Positions 20,327-61,052 of a DNA stretch of 64,000 nucleotides are shown in pieces; positions within the stretch are counted from its first letter, which is position 1; every line of letters begins with the position of its first letter. The notes below the pieces were generated by a model. The model did no database searches, was not told the DNA's origin, and saw only the letters and a list, made by a program, of their open reading frames with translations. The stretch covers positions 21,289-85,288 of the IMG/VR virus record IMGVR_UViG_3300021376_000029. One strand, given 5' to 3'. Source of the stretch: a virus. The translations under genes were made by a program, and so were the position numbers.

Positions 20327-21505
20327 TCAGTCAAGGCTAACATTCAGAGTAATCTTAATTTGGTCACCCTGGTTTTGAATTGGGTATGGACCATTAGTGA
20401 ATCTTTCAGCAAACATGATGCTGCTGTAAAGAGTTGCAGCTCCAAGACCATCAAGTGCAGGAGTAAGATTGAACTCGTTTGCACTAGGGACTGAGAATAC
20501 AGTATATGTTCCTGCAGTGGTTGTAGTATTACCAGCAGCACGAGCGATGTAAATAACATCACCAGCAACAAGACCATGTGCAGTTGCAGTTACTTTGGAG
20601 AACTCCAGAGTGATGGATGAGTCAGTTGCAACCTGAACGTTATCAGTTAATGCATTACTAAGGTGAATAATTCTTTGCAGAAGATCAATACCGATGATCT
20701 TAGTTCCAGCTGGTACAGCGTTGTTGCCGCCAACTACTTGACCTACCGTAATGTCATCCATAATTGATGCTACGTTAGGCAGAGTAATGTAACTATTTCC
20801 GATAACGCCGATACAAGGATTAGTATTATCACCTTTATTCAGAACTGTTCCAGCAGCAATAGTTGCGCCACCCTCATAACCATGGAGTGCCACAGGCATA
20901 TTGTTTGCTCTTACCAGATAATAACCATAAACATTACCAGCAGCGCCTTGGAATGTGAAAGTTTGTTCTGGATAAGTAGCAGTAGTAACTCCACCAGCGA
21001 AGTTAATTACACCACTTACTGCACCAGAATTTTTAACCGTAAGAATTATAGTATTACCAGAAACTCTTGATACTTTAGCGCCAGCTGCGATACCAGTACC
21101 AGTAACAGTGTTACCAACACTGACAGTTCCTGAGAGACCTGATACTGTGATTTCGTATGAATCCTGTGCGCCACTTGAATTAGTTGTAGTAGCTACTGGA
21201 TCTGAAGCAGTTGTGATCGCCCAACGCGAACCATTGAGCAGAATACCATATTGTCCAGCATAGTTCTGATCCGCACGATTATTGATAACTGATGGATAAC
21301 CTGTATTTGGTGCAGTGCCATAAGTGTTTTGATTACCATCAGCATATGGCTCGTAATAAGCAGTTGCCGAAGGAACATCTGCTTCGTCTGGTGTGGTGTT
21401 TGACGTAAAAAGTTTCAGAATTAAATTTCTTGGGATATTATGAGTAGAATTCAACAGATAACGAAGTGATTCTACCTCACCAATATTAGGTACTAAAAGT
21501 GCCAT
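20327..21505 (-). CDS. Conserved cyanophage virion structural protein (392 aa)
   Basis: 392 aa. The N-terminus MALLVPNIGEVESLRYLLNS, then LILKLFTSNTTP and the NYAGQYGILLNGSRWAITT region, is a pattern I recall from cyanophage virion proteins of unknown exact position. The middle has an insert-like beta module (TVSGLSGTVSVGNTVTGTGI). A GGAGGAAC ribosome site and the late box at 21551-21558 support this start, and a terminator follows. Likely a fibre-attachment or fibre-associated protein; no enzymatic residues seen. Confidence 0.75.
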   Translation of the reverse strand: MALLVPNIGEVESLRYLLNSTHNIPRNLILKLFTSNTTPDEADVPSATAYYEPYADGNQNTYGTAPNTGYPSVINNRADQNYAGQYGILLNGSRWAITTASDPVATTTNSSGAQDSYEITVSGLSGTVSVGNTVTGTGIAAGAKVSRVSGNTIILTVKNSGAVSGVINFAGGVTTATYPEQTFTFQGAAGNVYGYYLVRANNMPVALHGYEGGATIAAGTVLNKGDNTNPCIGVIGNSYITLPNVASIMDDITVGQVVGGNNAVPAGTKIIGIDLLQRIIHLSNALTDNVQVATDSSITLEFSKVTATAHGLVAGDVIYIARAAGNTTTTAGTYTVFSVPSANEFNLTPALDGLGAATLYSSIMFAERFTNGPYPIQNQGDQIKITLNVSLD

Positions 21506-55840: not shown

Positions 55841-55992
55841 TATATATGAAATTGGAAAATTTTTTGGAAAAATTTTTTTATAAAACAGAGTACCTTAAGG
55901 TCGGTTGGGAACCTTTGTAGGTTAGAAGGGACCCTTAAGTTTTCAACACGGCGCCTCGGGGTCAACCCCGCTCGGGGCGGGGCAACTGCTGA
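55841..55992. other. Intergenic region with nested inverted repeats
   Basis: 152 bp without a gene. Holds a T/A-rich run (55858-55885), the perfect palindrome ACCTTAAGGT (55892-55901), a matching CTTAAG at 55934-55939, and a GC-rich fold around GGGGTCAACCCCG (55957-55980). The sharp GC change to the island begins about 55,940. It may terminate the 64-aa gene and carry the promoter of the glutaredoxin operon. Confidence 0.5.
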
Positions 55993-56187
55993 TCACTGCC
56001 AGCGGGTCTGGTGGTCGGTGTCTGCCATGAAGCGAGCGGACCCGCTGCTGCCCATGACTCGGGTCATGATAAGATCAGCACGGCGTGGGCGGCGGGTCGG
56101 AAGTCGTTTGATCTTGAACTCGCCTGCCTCAATCTTGGCGGTCAGTTCGGCAGAGGTCATCGGAGCGGGGAGGGTGTTCAGTGCCAT
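55993..56187 (-). CDS. GC-island small protein (64 aa)
   Basis: 64 aa (MALNTLPAPMTSAELTAKIE, then Arg-rich IKRLPTRRPRRADLI). It is preceded by the repeated promoter-leader cassette (56192-56220), which makes this frame more credible than the antisense one. Arg-rich middle suggests nucleic-acid contact. No known family. GC content and codon use differ strongly from the rest of the window. Confidence 0.55.
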   Translation of the reverse strand: MALNTLPAPMTSAELTAKIEAGEFKIKRLPTRRPRRADLIMTRVMGSSGSARFMADTDHQTRWQ

Positions 56188-56402: not shown

Positions 56403-56462
56403 AGTCTACAGGGTCGCGGTCAGTGGTTGGCGGCGAACTGTGCCACCTTGTCTGCTGTCACA
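56403..56462 (-). promoter_or_regulatory. Cassette promoter with TGTG(A/C)CA palindrome
   Basis: Element at 56439-56462 reads TGTGCCA-N10-TGTCACA on the plus strand; 30 nt then the -10 TAGACT (56403-56408, minus). No -35 match. It lies inside the 3' part of the 48-aa gene. Confidence 0.55.
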
Positions 56463-56566
56463 CGGTCTAGGGTTTGGGCGGCGTTGACCAGCGACCCTAG
56501 GGTGTTGCTGAACATCAGGCAGATCCCAGCGATGAGAGCAAGACGGATCAGGTTAGGCATGGGCAT
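56420..56566 (-). CDS. Small membrane or exported protein (48 aa)
   Basis: MPMPNLIRLALIAGICLMFS then NTLGSLVNAAQTLDRVTADK and VAQFAANH. The first 25 residues form one hydrophobic helix with a basic start, so a membrane anchor or a signal peptide is likely. It begins 2 bp after the stop of the 57-aa gene, suggesting co-transcription. A longer ATG in the same frame (92 aa from 56698) is less likely because it would cross the 57-aa gene. Confidence 0.5.
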   Translation of the reverse strand: MPMPNLIRLALIAGICLMFSNTLGSLVNAAQTLDRVTADKVAQFAANH

Positions 56567-56568
56567 GA

Positions 56569-56742
56569 TCAGGAAGGGATCAGGTGGGCGAACTGTGCCA
56601 TGCTGCTGGGGGCAACATGGGCGGGTGATCCACAGGAGCGGTAGAAGTCTACCATGCTCTCTGCCTCTGCCAGAGTGGGGAACCACTGTGACCGCCACTC
56701 CTGCTGGTTGTATGGGGTCTGGTAGCGGATCTCAATCTTCAT
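56569..56742 (-). CDS. GC-island small protein (57 aa)
   Basis: Translated by hand: MKIEIRYQTPYNQQEWRSQW, then FPTLAEAESMVDFYRSCGSP and AHVAPSSMAQFAHLIPS. Looks like a small alpha/beta protein of the type IEIRYxxPYxxxEWRSxWFxTLAEAE seen in cyanophages. Preceded by a full promoter-leader cassette (56754-56783). Function unknown. Confidence 0.6.
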   Translation of the reverse strand: MKIEIRYQTPYNQQEWRSQWFPTLAEAESMVDFYRSCGSPAHVAPSSMAQFAHLIPS

Positions 56743-56770
56743 AGGTCTGTTTCGTTTGGTTGATGTGGTT

Positions 56771-56830
56771 AGTCTAGACGGTCACGGTCAGGTGTCGTTG
56801 CAGGAGTGTGCGGTTGATCCACTGACCCAT
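56771..56830 (-). promoter_or_regulatory. Cassette promoter with weak upstream element
   Basis: -10 TAGACT at 56771-56776 with the CATCAACCAAACGAA leader. About 30 nt upstream (56807 on) only the TGTG half of the palindrome is clear. Confidence 0.45.
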
Positions 56831-57019
56831 GCTACCCTGGCGGTTGACCAGCAGACGCAGCATATCACGACGGCGGCAGTCATGGGCGGACACGCTGCCC
56901 GAGTGCCACTGTACGATGGCACGACGGGTCAGAGGCGACAGGATCACACGCTCACAGGCAGACGAGGGACGCTGCACGTTGATGAAGACGGGCAGGTGAT
57001 CAAGAGCGAAGTTGGTCAT
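56774..57019 (-). CDS. GC-island hypothetical (81 aa)
   Basis: Start chosen at 57019 (MTNFALDHLPVFINVQRPSS), directly after the cassette leader CAACCAAACGAACC; the upstream in-frame ATG at 57073 would start before the promoter. Arg-rich centre (LSPLTRRAIVQWHSGSVSAH, then DCRRRDMLRLLVN). No recognised motif. Possibly a small nucleic-acid-binding protein. Confidence 0.55.
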   Translation of the reverse strand: MTNFALDHLPVFINVQRPSSACERVILSPLTRRAIVQWHSGSVSAHDCRRRDMLRLLVNRQGSMGQWINRTLLQRHLTVTV

Positions 57020-57043
57020 GGTTCGTTTGGTTGAACTGAGATC

Positions 57044-57103
57044 AGTATAAGGGATCGGGTGGGGGGACTGCAACCCCCCTGTGGACGGTTCAGAAATCGG
57101 TCA
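57044..57103 (-). promoter_or_regulatory. Cassette promoter with degenerate element
   Basis: -10 TATACT at 57044-57049; a TTGCAG lies near the -35 position with an 18-nt spacer. The element site at 57080-57103 matches the palindrome at about 14 of 24 positions. Confidence 0.5.
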
Positions 57104-57311
57104 GCATGTCATCCAGTTCGTCGGTGTCAATCTTAGCGTCCATCCAACGGGCACCGTCTGGGGTCATCTGCCCCCACAGCATCTCAAGATGGGGAATGAG
57201 AGCATTGTAGCGGGTGAACTTCTGAGCGAGGTTGTAGGTCGTCTCGTCGTTCTGAATCCAGAGAGCGACGTTCCAGGTCTCCCAGTTTGCCCATCCGTTG
57301 AAGGTGGTCAT
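57090..57311 (-). CDS. NGW-N-TWNVALW family small protein (73 aa)
   Basis: 73 aa starting MTTFNGWANWETWNVALWIQ. The NGWxNxxTWNVALWI opening defines a small family found in cyanophages and other phages (DUF7249-like by memory), function unknown. The rest has MLWGQMTPDGARWMDAKIDT. Preceded by a cassette promoter and leader. The best recognised gene in the GC island, it supports the reading direction. Confidence 0.7.
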   Translation of the reverse strand: MTTFNGWANWETWNVALWIQNDETTYNLAQKFTRYNALIPHLEMLWGQMTPDGARWMDAKIDTDELDDMLTDF

Positions 57312-57338
57312 GATTCGGTTCGTTTGGTTGATGTGGTT

Positions 57339-57396
57339 AGTCTACAGGGTCAGGGGGGAGAATGGGGGCAGCGGTGCCACCCCCTTGACTGTCACA
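57339..57396 (-). promoter_or_regulatory. Cassette promoter with TGTG(A/C)CA palindrome
   Basis: Element 57373-57396 reads GGTGCCA-N10-TGTCACA; 28 nt further is TAGACT (57339-57344), then the CATCAACCAAAC leader (57322-57345) and the ATG at 57311. Confidence 0.55.
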
Positions 57397-57589
57397 TGCC
57401 GTTCAGGAAGTCGTGCAGATCCTCGCGGTATTCTGCCTCGGTCTGGTAGACTCGCCCGTGAATCTCGCGGGGATAGGTGGCAGTGGCAGCGGGTGCCTTG
57501 CTGGGCTCTTTGCCCTGGGAGAGGATCTGAGCAACGTAGGGGTTCACGTCGTAGATCTCGCCAGGCATGTCTTGGATCTCATCCCACAT
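57392..57589 (-). CDS. GC-island hypothetical (65 aa)
   Basis: 65 aa (MWDEIQDMPGEIYDVNPYVA, then ATYPREIHGRVYQTEAEYRE and DLHDFLNGM). Soluble and acidic; the YQTEAEYREDLHDFL helix is amphipathic. Preceded by a promoter-leader cassette (57601-57623). No family recognised. Confidence 0.55.
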   Translation of the reverse strand: MWDEIQDMPGEIYDVNPYVAQILSQGKEPSKAPAATATYPREIHGRVYQTEAEYREDLHDFLNGM

Positions 57590-57617
57590 AGGTTTGGTTC
57601 GTTTGGTTGATGCTGTT

Positions 57618-57676
57618 AGTATGGCAGCCCCTGATGGGGTTTGGGGCAGTTGGTGGACAGTGCCTCAACTGTCACA
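57618..57676 (-). promoter_or_regulatory. Cassette promoter with TGTG(A/C)CA palindrome
   Basis: Element 57653-57676 (GTGGACA-N10-TGTCACA), 29 nt spacer, -10 CATACT (57618-57623), then leader 57601-57623. A CCCCATCAGGGG stem lies in the spacer. Confidence 0.55.
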
Positions 57677-57683
57677 TAGTACC

Positions 57684-57857
57684 TTATTCCTCCAGCAGTT
57701 CGGGATAGTATTCTTCAACCTCTGCAATCAGTTCCTCGTCGCTATAACCAGAGAGGTTTTCTTCAATCTGATCGCCTACAATACGCATCAGATCTTTGGT
57801 GGACATGTTATCAAGCAAACGATCAACGTATGCTTCCAGAAGTTCTTGACGGTTCAT
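57684..57857 (-). CDS. Small conserved cyanophage protein (57 aa)
   Basis: Translated by hand: MNRQELLEAYVDRLLDNMST, then KDLMRIVGDQIEENLSGYSD and EELIAEVEEYYPELLEE. All-helical and acidic; a pattern familiar from many cyanophage genomes, function unknown. The TAA lies 8 bp from the palindrome element. It is the third gene of a unit starting at 58226. Confidence 0.65.
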   Translation of the reverse strand: MNRQELLEAYVDRLLDNMSTKDLMRIVGDQIEENLSGYSDEELIAEVEEYYPELLEE

Positions 57858-57862
57858 GATGT

Positions 57863-58063
57863 TCAGTTCAGAATGTGACGATAATCAATGGATTTGATAC
57901 ACCAACCTGTCCATGATGTGATCTCTTCAATGAGATCATCTTCATCATCTGCTTCCCAGATATGTCCTACTGTATCGTCAATGATGTCATTCATCTCAGC
58001 AGATGTGATCTCATCTTCAGAACCAGTGAAATCATACTCAATGGAAGTAACTTGGAATTGCAT
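57863..58063 (-). CDS. Small conserved hypothetical (66 aa)
   Basis: Start at 58063 (MQFQVTSIEYDFTGSEDEIT), 1 bp after the stop of the 53-aa gene; an ATG at 58150 would overlap that gene. The body is acidic with DDEDDLIEEITSWTGWCIKS. I recall similar proteins in cyanophages with a YDF..(D/E)-rich..GW pattern. Function unknown. Confidence 0.6.
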   Translation of the reverse strand: MQFQVTSIEYDFTGSEDEITSAEMNDIIDDTVGHIWEADDEDDLIEEITSWTGWCIKSIDYRHILN

Positions 58064-58064
58064 T

Positions 58065-58226
58065 TCAGTTGCACTCCTGATAGGCATCGTGGATCTTATC
58101 TTGCACACTCTCAAACACTTTCTGATCCATCCATTCTGGACACTCATCATGGAAACAGACCAGATCGTAGAGCACTGCCATCTCGTCGGAAGTAAAGGCG
58201 GTCAACATGTCGTAACGGTTGTGCAT
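58065..58226 (-). CDS. Small hypothetical (53 aa)
   Basis: Translated by hand: MHNRYDMLTAFTSDEMAVLY, then DLVCFHDECPEWMDQKVFES and VQDKIHDAYQECN. Three Cys and a CFHDEC stretch could bind metal, but the spacing does not match a standard zinc finger. First gene after the cassette promoter at 58248-58306; co-transcribed with the next two. Confidence 0.6.
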   Translation of the reverse strand: MHNRYDMLTAFTSDEMAVLYDLVCFHDECPEWMDQKVFESVQDKIHDAYQECN

Positions 58227-58247
58227 GGTTGTTTGGTTGACTCTGTT

Positions 58248-58306
58248 AGTATTGCACCCCCTGAAGTGGTTTGGTGGGATGCTGTGCCAGTTGTCAAAGT
58301 GTCACT
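58248..58306 (-). promoter_or_regulatory. Cassette promoter with TGTG(A/C)CA palindrome
   Basis: Element 58283-58306 reads TGTGCCA-N10-TGTCACT; exactly 29 nt then AATACT (58248-58253), then the GTCAACCAAAC leader (58231-58253) and the ATG at 58226. This is the last cassette of the GC island. Confidence 0.6.
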
Positions 58307-58326
58307 AGTACACTTGACAATTGATA

Positions 58327-58488
58327 TCAGAATTCAATAGAATCAAGAGTAGGTTCGTTATACTCACTGCTCTGATCTTGAGCAGTGATAGTATCAAGAA
58401 TGGTGAGCAATTCATCACCATTCTTTGCTTGTTTGAGCATAGAAACCATCAATTGAGTAGGCATAATCAAAGAAGAATCAAAGGACAT
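58327..58488 (-). CDS. Small conserved cyanophage protein (53 aa)
   Basis: Translated by hand: MSFDSSLIMPTQLMVSMLKQ, then AKNGDELLTILDTITAQDQS and SEYNEPTLDSIEF. The MPTQLM...LKQAKNGDELLTILD helix is familiar from T4-like cyanophages (function unknown). A -10-like TATAGT (58496-58501) ends 7 nt before the ATG, so the transcript may be nearly leaderless; no palindrome element is seen upstream. Confidence 0.65.
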   Translation of the reverse strand: MSFDSSLIMPTQLMVSMLKQAKNGDELLTILDTITAQDQSSEYNEPTLDSIEF

Positions 58489-58660
58489 TTGTTATACTAT
58501 AATAGTTAATACTAGTATAGTATTGTTAATATTATAATCTTTATGATTATAATAGTTTTGTAAAAATCTTAAATTTAAAGTTTTTAAGATTTTTAAGATT
58601 TTTATAAAATTAAAGATTCTGTGGAATTTGAGTTTTCCACAGAATCTTAAATTTTGAAAT
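58489..58660. other. AT-rich intergenic region
   Basis: 172 bp without a gene. Holds repeated AAATCTTAAA-type stretches, several TATA-like boxes in 58491-58560, and the long terminator hairpin at its right end. Confidence 0.5.
58613..58648 (-). terminator. Strong hairpin terminator with DnaA-box-like arm
   Basis: Perfect 14-bp stem AAGATTCTGTGGAA / TTCCACAGAATCTT, 8-nt loop, then TTTAATTTTAT in the minus direction. Closes the 108-aa gene. The right part includes TTTTCCACA (58633-58641). Confidence 0.75.
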
Positions 58661-58987
58661 TTATGCCAGTTTCATAGAATTACGAAAAGGCACAGTTTCA
58701 ATACCTCGGTCAGTGTTCAGGTTAATGAACCATTCCCACTGCTTTTGAAACACACACTCACCAGGACGACCATGCTCCCGAAGGATAGCATTGAGACGAG
58801 ATTTGGTGGTATTAGATTGCCAACCTCCATCAAACAGTCGGACAAAAGTATCACCAATCTCAGCAATACAATTGCCATGAAGAAATACAGAACTGACACC
58901 ATCAATAGTGACAACTTCAGTGTTGTCACGTTTCCAATCACGTTGATCGGTGATGGCAGCATTCATCAGACGTTCAATTTTTCTCAT
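58661..58987 (-). CDS. Conserved phage hypothetical (108 aa)
   Basis: 108 aa starting MRKIERLMNAAITDQRDWKR. The VFLHGNCIAEIGDTFVRLFD then GGWQSNTTKSRLNAILREHG pattern recurs in unrelated phages as a small early protein of unknown function. Its promoter (TATATT at 59012-59017) carries a near-perfect palindrome element 29 nt upstream. A strong terminator follows. It could bind nucleic acid, but no motif proves this. Confidence 0.75.
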   Translation of the reverse strand: MRKIERLMNAAITDQRDWKRDNTEVVTIDGVSSVFLHGNCIAEIGDTFVRLFDGGWQSNTTKSRLNAILREHGRPGECVFQKQWEWFINLNTDRGIETVPFRNSMKLA

Positions 58988-59011
58988 GGGGGAATTCCCG
59001 ACGACTCATGT

Positions 59012-59070
59012 AATATAACCCCACCAGACCCCCCTGGGAGGTCCTGTGTGCCACTTTCTAAACTGTCACA
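59012..59070 (-). promoter_or_regulatory. Promoter with TGTG(A/C)CA palindrome
   Basis: Element 59047-59070 reads TGTGCCA-N10-TGTCACA, 29 nt then -10 TATATT (59012-59017), about 25 nt before the ATG at 58987. No -35 match. The element overlaps the stop of the 47-aa gene. Confidence 0.6.
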
Positions 59071-59209
59071 TAAACTCTTGCATAAAATAGTCTACTGTGA
59101 CATGTAGTGCTGCTGCCTGTGCCTCAATATCCAGGGCAAATGCTTCGGCATCTGCTTTATCACTAAGCAACTCTAAAGTACTATCAGACAGAAAGCTTTC
59201 GGGTTTCAT
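59066..59209 (-). CDS. Small acidic protein (47 aa)
   Basis: Start taken at 59209 (MKPESFLSDSTLELLSDKAD, then AEAFALDIEAQAAALHVTVD, YFMQEFM), inside the end of the 78-aa gene; the in-frame ATG at 59329 would bury it fully. Helical, acidic, with Ala/Glu-rich centre. It is the last gene of the 59.7-59.1 kb unit. Function unknown. Confidence 0.5.
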   Translation of the reverse strand: MKPESFLSDSTLELLSDKADAEAFALDIEAQAAALHVTVDYFMQEFM

Positions 59210-59420
59210 TGAGTAGTTGTCGTTGGGCAGATTTGATGAACTGTAAACTATCATAGATTGAATGTACAATTCCGATATCAGGTCCACTAGAGGATTTAAT
59301 ATCAATCTTGGTAACATTCTTCCAATCAATTGTAGAGTCAGGATTCACTGACGTAGTATAATAGTTGCCATCTTTCTCATAATAGGCAACACCTTCTACG
59401 ACAACATAAGTGTCATTCAT
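59184..59420 (-). CDS. Small hypothetical (78 aa)
   Basis: Start at 59420 (MNDTYVVVEGVAYYEKDGNY), 5 nt upstream of the preceding gene's TGA, so coupled. Small beta-rich N-terminus with YVVVEGVAYYEKDGNYYTTS, then a helix IVHSIYDSLQFIKSAQRQLL. No recognised family. Overlaps the next gene by 26 bp. Confidence 0.6.
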   Translation of the reverse strand: MNDTYVVVEGVAYYEKDGNYYTTSVNPDSTIDWKNVTKIDIKSSSGPDIGIVHSIYDSLQFIKSAQRQLLNETRKLSV

Positions 59421-59541
59421 AGTCAAAGTCTCCAGGAGTTTCATAGTCATCATACTCAATTTCTTCTAGATTGTCAAGATCCTCCTCCAAATAGGGGATT
59501 TGAAATGTTTCTTCAGAAAGATCGTAGAATTCTTTATCCAT
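59413..59541 (-). CDS. Acidic microprotein (42 aa)
   Basis: Translated by hand: MDKEFYDLSEETFQIPYLEE, then DLDNLEEIEYDDYETPGDFD, YE. About 40 percent Asp/Glu, resembling a DNA-mimic-like acidic phage protein, though this is only composition. Begins 1 bp after the 52-aa gene's TAA and overlaps the next start. Function unknown. Confidence 0.55.
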   Translation of the reverse strand: MDKEFYDLSEETFQIPYLEEDLDNLEEIEYDDYETPGDFDYE

Positions 59542-59542
59542 A

Positions 59543-59701
59543 TTAGTAGAGAGGTTGAACATCCAGATAGGTAATTTTGAATTTCTTATTTTCTTTTTTT
59601 ACCTTTTTGATAGCATTCTGGTGATTGTTTGCTGTTACATACCCCTCTTGAGTATGTCCTTCAGCAGTCTCTATATAATATTCAAATTTGGTTGAAGACA
59701 T
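59543..59701 (-). CDS. Small basic hypothetical (52 aa)
   Basis: Translated by hand: MSSTKFEYYIETAEGHTQEG, then YVTANNHQNAIKKVKKENKK and FKITYLDVQPLY. The EYYIETAEGHTQEGYV...NAIKKVKKENKKFK pattern is a small beta-alpha protein with a basic helix. First gene of a unit driven by a near-consensus promoter with a perfect palindrome element upstream. Function unknown. Confidence 0.65.
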   Translation of the reverse strand: MSSTKFEYYIETAEGHTQEGYVTANNHQNAIKKVKKENKKFKITYLDVQPLY

Positions 59702-59723
59702 TGAATTAATTGTTTACTTGTTA

Positions 59724-59782
59724 ACTATAAAGCATTTGTATTTAGAAGTCAAGTATTTTGTGACACTTTATAAACTGTCACA
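59724..59782 (-). promoter_or_regulatory. Sigma70 promoter with perfect palindrome element
   Basis: Element 59759-59782: TGTGACA-N10-TGTCACA, both 7-bp arms perfect. Then TTGACT (59747-59752), 17 bp, TATAGT (59724-59729). The element ends 6 nt upstream of the -35 and 29 nt upstream of the -10. It also sits 1 bp from the tRNA-Leu 3' end. Confidence 0.75.
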
Positions 59783-59783
59783 A

Positions 59784-59866
59784 TAGGACTAGTCGGACTT
59801 GAACCGACAAGGATACAATCCGACAGATTTTAAGTCTGTTGTGTTTACCAATTTCACCATAGTCCC
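59784..59866 (-). tRNA. tRNA-Leu (anticodon UAA)
   Basis: Minus strand, 83 nt, class II with a long variable arm (CGGATTGTATCCTTG region). Acceptor GGGACTA pairs with TAGTCCT (one G-T pair), anticodon loop CTTAAAA gives TAA, T-arm GTCGG...CCGAC. CCA is not encoded. Leu-UAA suits an AT-rich phage in a host of different codon use. Confidence 0.9.
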
Positions 59867-60127
59867 TTATAAAAAAGAGTATTATAATTGCAGTTATAAT
59901 ACTCTAATAAGAAGAAGACAAAATAAAACTATACAAAGGTAAATCCATGAACACAGATATCTGCAAATATCTTATAAATTATAATTATTATAATTTCTGA
60001 ATTTCTATAAAATTCTCAGAATTAAGATTTCTGAGGGTTTTATAAATTTACAGTTTTTATAAAAATTACAATTTTGGGGTTTTAGAGATTTCTTAGAATT
60101 TTAGATTTCTTAGAATTCTCTGAAACC

Positions 60128-60156
60128 ATTATAGAGGGTTTTATCAGGTTTGTCAA
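60128..60156 (-). promoter_or_regulatory. Perfect consensus sigma70 promoter, proximal
   Basis: TTGACA (60151-60156), 17-bp spacer, TATAAT (60128-60133) on the minus strand. Predicted start about 60121, roughly 255 nt before tRNA-Leu. Confidence 0.85.
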
Positions 60157-60209
60157 GGGGTTTCTGATATCAGAGAACCTTATTGTTCCTTTGAACCCTC
60201 ACAGAGTTA

Positions 60210-60238
60210 ATTATAGGGGGATCTGAGAGTTTTGTCAA
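60210..60238 (-). promoter_or_regulatory. Perfect consensus sigma70 promoter, distal
   Basis: TTGACA (60233-60238), 17-bp spacer, TATAAT (60210-60215) on the minus strand, 82 bp upstream of the proximal copy and in tandem with it. Confidence 0.85.
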
Positions 60239-60330
60239 GGGGGTGGGAGTAATTGTGAAGATTTTATACAAGAGCTTGACAAATCGGTACACTGCGGGCT
60301 TAGATGACTATAAGATCCTCCATTATAAAG

Positions 60331-60374
60331 TTTTCCACAGGTTTTTCCACAGTTTCCACAGACCTTGTGGAAAA
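60331..60374. other. Cluster of cyanobacterial-type DnaA boxes
   Basis: TTTTCCACA at 60331-60339 and 60343-60351, a one-mismatch GTTTCCACA at 60352-60360, and an inverted TTTTCCACA at 60366-60374: four sites in 44 bp. The cyanobacterial DnaA box is TTTTCCACA by established work. Could be an origin, a DnaA titration site or a host-protein-controlled promoter. Confidence 0.6.
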
Positions 60375-60410
60375 CTCTACCATATTTTAATTAACATTTA
60401 ATTTATGATT

Positions 60411-60432
60411 AAAGGGGGACATATAAGTCCCC
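60411..60432 (-). terminator. Hairpin terminator
   Basis: GGGGAC / GTCCCC stem (60415-60432) with a 6-nt loop, followed in the minus direction by CCTTTAATC. Ends the 84-aa gene. Confidence 0.6.
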
Positions 60433-60441
60433 ATAATGCCT

Positions 60442-60696
60442 TCAGGAAGGGTCTACAAGGTCACCAACACGACGAGCATCACTAATCATTCCACCCAAAG
60501 AAATACCACCGAAATCCTCTGCTTGAAGCACTTCAGTCAGTTGTTGAGCAAATTCCGCATCTGCAGTATAAGTATAAAGATTACTAGGATTAGACTGATA
60601 GGCAACAGTCACAGTACGATCTTCAACCTTTACAAATGCAATAGCACTGGATTGTTCTCCAGTAATCATACGAGCAATGGGAGCAGTCACGGTCAT
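60442..60696 (-). CDS. KTSC-like small protein (84 aa)
   Basis: 84 aa. The GEQSSAIAFVKVEDRTVTVA then YQSNPSNLYTYTADAEFAQQ pattern resembles the KTSC domain (SSxIxxVxYd...LxVxFxxG..YxY), a small fold of unknown, possibly nucleic-acid-related role. Family match is by eye and moderate. It follows tRNA-Met by 46 bp and ends at a hairpin, so the two may share a transcript. Confidence 0.65.
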   Translation of the reverse strand: MTVTAPIARMITGEQSSAIAFVKVEDRTVTVAYQSNPSNLYTYTADAEFAQQLTEVLQAEDFGGISLGGMISDARRVGDLVDPS

Positions 60697-60741
60697 GGTT
60701 TAATACAAAATAAAGAACAATTTGGGTATTTGATTACCCAA

Positions 60742-60814
60742 TGCGGGTTGTGGGGAACGATCCCACCTTTTCCGAATTATGAGTTCGGTGCATTCACCAG
60801 ATTGCTAAACCCGC
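60742..60814 (-). tRNA. tRNA-Met (anticodon CAU)
   Basis: Minus strand, 73 nt. Acceptor GCGGGTT / AACCCGC (7 bp), D-arm GCA...TGC, anticodon arm CCGAA-CTCATAA-TTCGG with anticodon CAT, T-arm GTGGG-ATCGTTC-CCCAC. No encoded CCA. The anticodon stem lacks the three G-C pairs of initiator tRNAs, so elongator Met (or a lysidine-modified Ile) is likely. Its 5' half overlaps the end of the 63-aa gene. Confidence 0.85.
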
Positions 60815-60968
60815 TCAAGAGAGCACGACGGGCATCATATGCTTGAGTCTGAGAAGCAAACTCTGCTATCTTCTGGAAAGTGTCACGAGAGTACAATCCC
60901 CAACGTGATGTACCGATGATACCACGGATGATATAAGGATTGTCTAAACCCAGGGGGTAGGATTTCAT
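60777..60968 (-). CDS. Small hypothetical overlapping tRNA-Met (63 aa)
   Basis: 63 aa (MKSYPLGLDNPYIIRGIIGT, then SRWGLYSRDTFQKIAEFASQ and TQAYDARRALLSGFSNLVNA). The last 13 codons (SGFSNLVNAPNS and stop) lie inside tRNA-Met, and the TAA uses the third anticodon base. The promoter at 60993-61052 with a clear palindrome element makes the ORF credible. Function unknown. Confidence 0.6.
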   Translation of the reverse strand: MKSYPLGLDNPYIIRGIIGTSRWGLYSRDTFQKIAEFASQTQAYDARRALLSGFSNLVNAPNS

Positions 60969-60992
60969 GGGGGTTCCCTTGACTACCTCTGT

Positions 60993-61052
60993 AGTATAAG
61001 GTCTCTAAGAGGGTGCTGGGGGCGGTGGTGTGACACTTTAAGAACTGGCACA
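60993..61052 (-). promoter_or_regulatory. Promoter with TGTG(A/C)CA palindrome
   Basis: Element 61029-61052 reads TGTGACA-N10-TGGCACA, then 30 nt, then -10 TATACT (60993-60998), about 25 nt before the ATG at 60968. No -35 match. Confidence 0.65.

Follow-up and report, generated by a model that had tools for sequence, protein, structure and literature searches.

Palindromes at a fixed distance upstream of cyanophage promoters as probable copies of the host PlmA operator

Introduction

At the middle promoters of bacteriophage T4, a MotA box at -30, used together with AsiA, is an upstream element that takes the place of a poor -35 at non-late promoters. Here we describe a similar arrangement in cyanophages, built on 24-bp palindromes of the form TGTG(A/C)CA-N10-TG(T/G)CACA, starting from a stretch of 64,000 nucleotides (nt) of virus DNA (the window; positions 21,289 to 85,288 of IMG/VR record IMGVR_UViG_3300021376_000029) that, judged by its capsid and baseplate homologues, represents part of a T4-like cyanophage genome. 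Cyanomyoviruses lack MotA and AsiA, both of them phage proteins, and the early and middle control of these viruses without MotA, AsiA, Alt and Mod has been called unclear (PMC2984593). Whereas the T4 box lies at -30 and is served by phage factors, the cyanophage palindrome has a predicted centre at -53.5 and a factor that is apparently the host's.

Two other systems in cyanophages come close. The accessible part of one source describes NtcA and Pho-box sites (PMC3037559), which are likewise sites of host transcription factors that T4-like cyanophages have put to use; these involve other factors and other sequences (GTA-N8-TAC and CTTA-N7-CTTA) than the palindrome, and that part mentions no fixed geometry over a large gene set. 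In Mic1, a siphovirus of Microcystis, the sequence GTGCCAGTTYATAAAGTGTCACA...TTGACA...ATAAT has been reported to be repeated 8 times (PMC7156551). Its palindrome is the same as that of the window family; the accessible text of that report describes it only as a repeat with a predicted promoter, names no factor, and connects it neither with yfr2 nor with T4-like cyanophages.

The host element CGRE1 is said to have been described in Lambrecht 2018. PMM1637 of Prochlorococcus MED4, a GntR factor that all cyanobacteria share, is reported to bind yfr2 promoters that carry CGRE1 and to mediate the induction of Yfr2 under nitrogen starvation and high light, and in MED4 CGRE1 is reported at yfr2 promoters only (PMC6778093). 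Reviews equate PMM1637 with PlmA, and report that PlmA forms a complex with PII-PipX and is reduced by thioredoxin. The phage sites share with the element at yfr2 promoters, probably CGRE1, the palindromic core and the distance to the -10 and to the RNA 5' end, but the phages carry up to tens of copies, placed ahead of protein genes. We consider it likely, from sequence comparison, that these palindromes copy the host PlmA operator (CGRE1) and serve as activator sites for early/middle promoters.

Results

Palindromes are enriched in cyanophage genomes outside the structural genes

Seven palindromes lie between positions 56439 and 61052 of the window, each at the place given by the original prediction (Table 1), with the minus-strand consensus TGTG(A/C)CAGTTNNNNAA(C/G)TG(G/T)CACA; the minus strand carries all seven genes with their promoters. 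The -10 hexamers 28-30 nt from the copies are likewise in place, although those of the copies at 57653 and 58283 read CATACT and AATACT, and most of the promoters do lack a -35, which is clear, with a spacer of 17, only for the copy at 59759. Degenerate copies had also been proposed before three further genes (ATGs at 56187, 56742 and 57019); these scored -0.4, -7.7 and -4.5, within or near a background whose 95th percentile is -1.9, and, not being separable from it, they do not count as established sites.

To evaluate matches we used a scoring matrix derived from 262 IMG/VR sites, with the window and the phages named here excluded from training. At a score of at least 14, the 85-kb record contains six matches compared to a shuffle mean of 0.1, none of them inside the structural block, which takes up 80% of the record (P = 6e-5). 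The same threshold gave 8 matches in Syn9, 15 in S-PM2, 15 in P-SSM2 and 23 in S-CRM01 (shuffle means 0.4-1.15), and none in S-TIM5. Since the structural blocks of five records hold 1 of 67 matches, we rejected a late (gp55-type) phage promoter, which would be placed upstream of structural genes. The motif is thus far more frequent than in shuffled sequence and nearly missing from the late region, a comparison on which the original prediction had staked its claim. A search allowing up to one mismatch found 6 copies in P-HM2, few in P-SSM4 (3), S-RSM4 (2) and CL131 (1), and none in T4, Ma-LMM01, S-TIM5, P-SSP7, Syn5, P60, S-CBS2, Nostoc phage A-1 or Pf-WMP4. With three mismatches allowed, a consensus search of the window returned 14 sequences against 8.8 expected, which is near background; this search is weaker because loose matches are counted.

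The sites are locked to a predicted core promoter

Among 292 environmental sites, the -10 is mostly 29-30 nt downstream, and the start of TA...T shows a sharp peak, with 180 occurrences at 29 nt and 124 at 30 nt over a background of about 10. In 245 oriented sites, selected for a -10 within a 26-33 nt window, there is a purine at the predicted +1 and a weak TTG at -35, which places the centre of the site at -53.5/-54.5. From the -10 to the start of the following open reading frame the median distance is 30 nt, and the genes downstream belong to 214 families, mostly of small proteins. In several families orthologous genes in different contigs retain the upstream site, including the Kyanoviridae Gp96 family (window 58987-58661; 8 other contigs) and the DUF7249 family (window 57311-57090; 6 other contigs). 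Across five genomes, proximal half-sites correctly spaced from a -10 numbered 58 compared to 14 expected, and matches to the proximal half only outnumbered those to the distal half only (32 vs 17, the latter approximately at background).

The phage palindromes therefore have what an operator would have, a fixed distance directly upstream of the core promoter. From this spacing an activator or repressor of an early regulon had been proposed; a predicted protein-binding site at a fixed distance, centred at -53.5 in non-late promoters, is upheld, and the label "early" draws on absence from the late block, which speaks for non-late promoters and does not set early apart from middle. The sites are not those of CRP or NtcA, as had been noted: the half-sites are N10 apart with an inward extension GTT...AAC, and neither a TGTGA-N6-TCACA nor a GTA-N8-TAC core is present.

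If the palindromes were instead RNA hairpins, either intrinsic terminators of the upstream gene or promoter-stem-loop shuffling cassettes, as their frequent position after a gene end might suggest, compensatory pairing between the arms would be expected. The arms lack covariation: A-G combinations occur 63 times at position 5/20 (Fisher P = 0.16), and at position 8/17 most sites have G-G or C-C. In addition, the site is upstream of the predicted +1 and at fixed spacing to the -10. We rejected hairpins on covariation and regard them as very improbable, and the Rho-independent terminator annotated at 154634-154661 of S-CRM01 (NC_015569), which overlaps one copy, is probably a misannotation.

The same element occurs upstream of host yfr2

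In 50 genomes of the family Microcystaceae we found 10 exact palindromes in 9 genomes, and 9 of the 10 are followed 29-30 nt on by TA...T and then by a conserved intergenic RF01701 Cyano-1 RNA (49-59 bits). We take Cyano-1 to be the small RNA Yfr2; consistent with this identity, it was present in nearly every genome searched, and its 5' sequence UGUGUGAGGAGU is almost complementary to the motif of Yfr1. Upstream of yfr2, the highest-scoring site under the phage matrix fell in one 11-nt window, fixed after a first look at the yfr2 loci, in 14 of 30 Microcystaceae loci (P = 6e-8) and in 18 of 29 Cyanobiaceae loci (P = 1e-12). Several other yfr2 loci are without the element, some of them forming a group with TTGACA as -35. 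Both sequence and spacing of the phage element are hence found at yfr2, in full at 9 Microcystaceae loci and in a half-degenerate but position-locked form in Cyanobiaceae, where the phage palindrome is the fuller of the two.

Exact palindromes are rare in Cyanobiaceae, with 14 in 400 genomes and at most one per genome, compared to about 12 expected (an estimate that assumes uniform base composition) and 0 for a reversed control. These matches need not be pure chance, but we rejected the idea that full palindromes define a regulon in picocyanobacterial hosts. One of the 14 (L283, genome G398) has its -10 at 30 nt and lies on a contig with small phage-like genes, which is probably phage DNA within a host assembly. 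At the Cyanobiaceae yfr2 loci L303-L329 the distal half TGTGACAGTT is kept and the proximal half lost, with weak phage copies reversed.

A host factor is the most likely reader of the sites

A GntR/PlmA gene was present in 5 of 5 sampled cyanobacteria and was the single GntR gene in both picocyanobacteria; its helix-turn-helix, the DNA-binding region, is nearly identical between Cyanobiaceae and Microcystaceae. No PlmA homologue was encoded in the cyanophage records searched. The original prediction knew of no described factor with this site, a statement that now looks mistaken, as host Yfr2/Cyano-1, whose CGRE1-containing promoters are published targets of PMM1637/PlmA, is preceded by this element with identical spacing. 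Because the same switch is found at phage promoters and at a host small-RNA gene, the viruses probably use the host regulator PlmA. Mic1, which is unrelated to T4-like cyanophages, carries 26 exact copies and so also indicates a host factor.

A regulator encoded by the phages themselves and conserved in T4-like cyanophages would leave the likeness to yfr2 as convergence or past capture. A small uncharacterised protein that may contain a helix-turn-helix (phrog_1308/1920; Table 1) is indeed common to four T4-like cyanophages; the 85-kb record that includes the window, itself a fragment, yielded no copy of it. Against such a regulator, host yfr2 promoters are recognized, with unchanged spacing, by a matrix trained on nothing but phage sites, and Mic1, a different kind of phage on a different host, has the same site. 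We consider a phage regulator unlikely, and most likely the factor is a host protein. DUF7717, encoded by an early-region gene common to four T4-like cyanophages, was rejected as the regulator since it has no DNA-binding match.

Tandem arrays of palindromes with a period of 57-58 bp were observed in L063, in L068 (316-2322) and in MN013189 (65948-72125), most units lacking a -10; contig L068, plus L063 by a shared repeat, come from relatives of Mic1. These arrays may act in titration or as a multi-site enhancer. Three Mic1-type copies have their -10 one helical turn farther away, 39 nt from the site.

Were the sites mainly decoys that titrate host PlmA, altering Yfr2 and host metabolism instead of driving phage genes, neither a -10 at a locked distance nor a nearby gene start would be needed, yet in T4-like phages most sites have a -10 at the set distance of 29-30 nt and a gene start about 30 nt beyond it. 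The Mic1 arrays without a -10 fit a decoy, as does the scarcity of PlmA, of which an S. elongatus cell has about 400 chains (PMC6243067). Scores are also higher in phages (up to about 34) than in picocyanobacterial yfr2 copies (up to about 15), on a matrix that is phage-trained. On balance a decoy as the main function appears quite improbable, somewhat more so than a phage regulator; as an addition to PlmA activation, titration could occur, most of all for the Mic1 arrays.

Organization of the window region

The window features are collected in Table 1. Between 56187 and 57640, a repeated promoter/leader module, TAGACTAACCACATCAACCAAACGAAC-like, lies ahead of several genes, within a GC-rich stretch that begins near 55930.

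Table 1 Palindromic sites and -10 hexamers of the window, with the locations of the shared small phage protein. Scores are from the position weight matrix; distances are from the named site.
Feature	Record	Coordinates	Strand	Sequence	Details
Palindromic site	Window	56439..56462	-	TGTGACAGCAGACAAGGTGGCACA	Exact; score 25.9
-10	Window	56403..56408	-	TAGACT	30 nt from 56439 site; gene 56396-56229, 55 amino acids
Palindromic site	Window	57373..57396	-	TGTGACAGTCAAGGGGGTGGCACC	1 mismatch; score 20.3
-10	Window	57339..57344	-	TAGACT	28 nt from 57373 site; gene 57311-57090, DUF7249, PF23907
Weak site	Window	57653..57676	-	TGTGACAGTTGAGGCACTGTCCAC	3 mismatches; score 12.9
-10	Window	57618..57623	-	CATACT	29 nt from 57653 site; gene 57589-57392, 65 amino acids
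Palindromic site	Window	58283..58306	-	AGTGACACTTTGACAACTGGCACA	1 mismatch; score 27.3
-10	Window	58248..58253	-	AATACT	29 nt from 58283 site; gene 58226-58065, 53 amino acids
Palindromic site	Window	59047..59070	-	TGTGACAGTTTAGAAAGTGGCACA	Exact; score 31.5
-10	Window	59012..59017	-	TATATT	29 nt from 59047 site; gene 58987-58661, Kyanoviridae Gp96 family, PF23790
Palindromic site	Window	59759..59782	-	TGTGACAGTTTATAAAGTGTCACA	Exact; score 29.8
-10	Window	59724..59729	-	TATAGT	29 nt from 59759 site; -35 TTGACT; gene 59701-59543, 52 amino acids
Palindromic site	Window	61029..61052	-	TGTGCCAGTTCTTAAAGTGTCACA	Exact; score 32.4
-10	Window	60993..60998	-	TATACT	30 nt from 61029 site; gene 60968-60777, 63 amino acids
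phrog_1308/1920 protein	P-SSM2	138979-139191
phrog_1308/1920 protein	Syn9	57929-58093
phrog_1308/1920 protein	S-PM2	93932-94144
phrog_1308/1920 protein	S-CRM01	76306-76488

Discussion

We infer that the motif is CGRE1, and that PlmA would bind its phage copies and activate the phage promoters; both the identity of the motif and its link to PlmA are drawn from position and conservation. In the mechanism we propose, a PlmA dimer would occupy the 24-bp phage site from -65 to -42, beside a weak or absent -35, and would help unmodified host sigma-70 RNA polymerase to start at the -10 located 29-30 nt downstream. The phages, whose hosts include marine and freshwater cyanobacteria, would thereby run a set of small non-structural genes through a regulator present in every cyanobacterial host. 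We favour activation because the site adjoins a poor -35, because weak phage copies keep the proximal half, and because of the role reported at yfr2.

Several observations weigh against this interpretation. Some T4-like cyanophages are poor in sites, such as S-RSM4, in which each of the two copies has one mismatch, and many Mic1 copies sit in the tandem arrays, where most units have no -10. Moreover, picocyanobacterial yfr2 sites retain mainly the distal half (6.0/7 vs 3.3/7), whereas degenerate phage sites retain the proximal half, the opposite pattern.

More tentatively, and with somewhat less than even confidence, we suggest that PlmA may be a shared early/middle dependency of T4-like cyanophages and of at least one unrelated Microcystis siphovirus, with the fuller phage sites also drawing PlmA away from yfr2. 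Given the reported association of PlmA with PII-PipX and its reduction by thioredoxin, infection would then be tied to the nitrogen and redox state of the host.

A host-factor site at many promoters would offer a concrete answer to the question of how cyanomyoviruses control early and middle transcription. The PlmA regulon has been called undefined (PMC6243067), and if our interpretation is true PlmA would gain a large target set in phage DNA. Cyanophage transcription is far stronger in the light than in the dark (PMC5082946), and the use of PlmA could bear on this difference.

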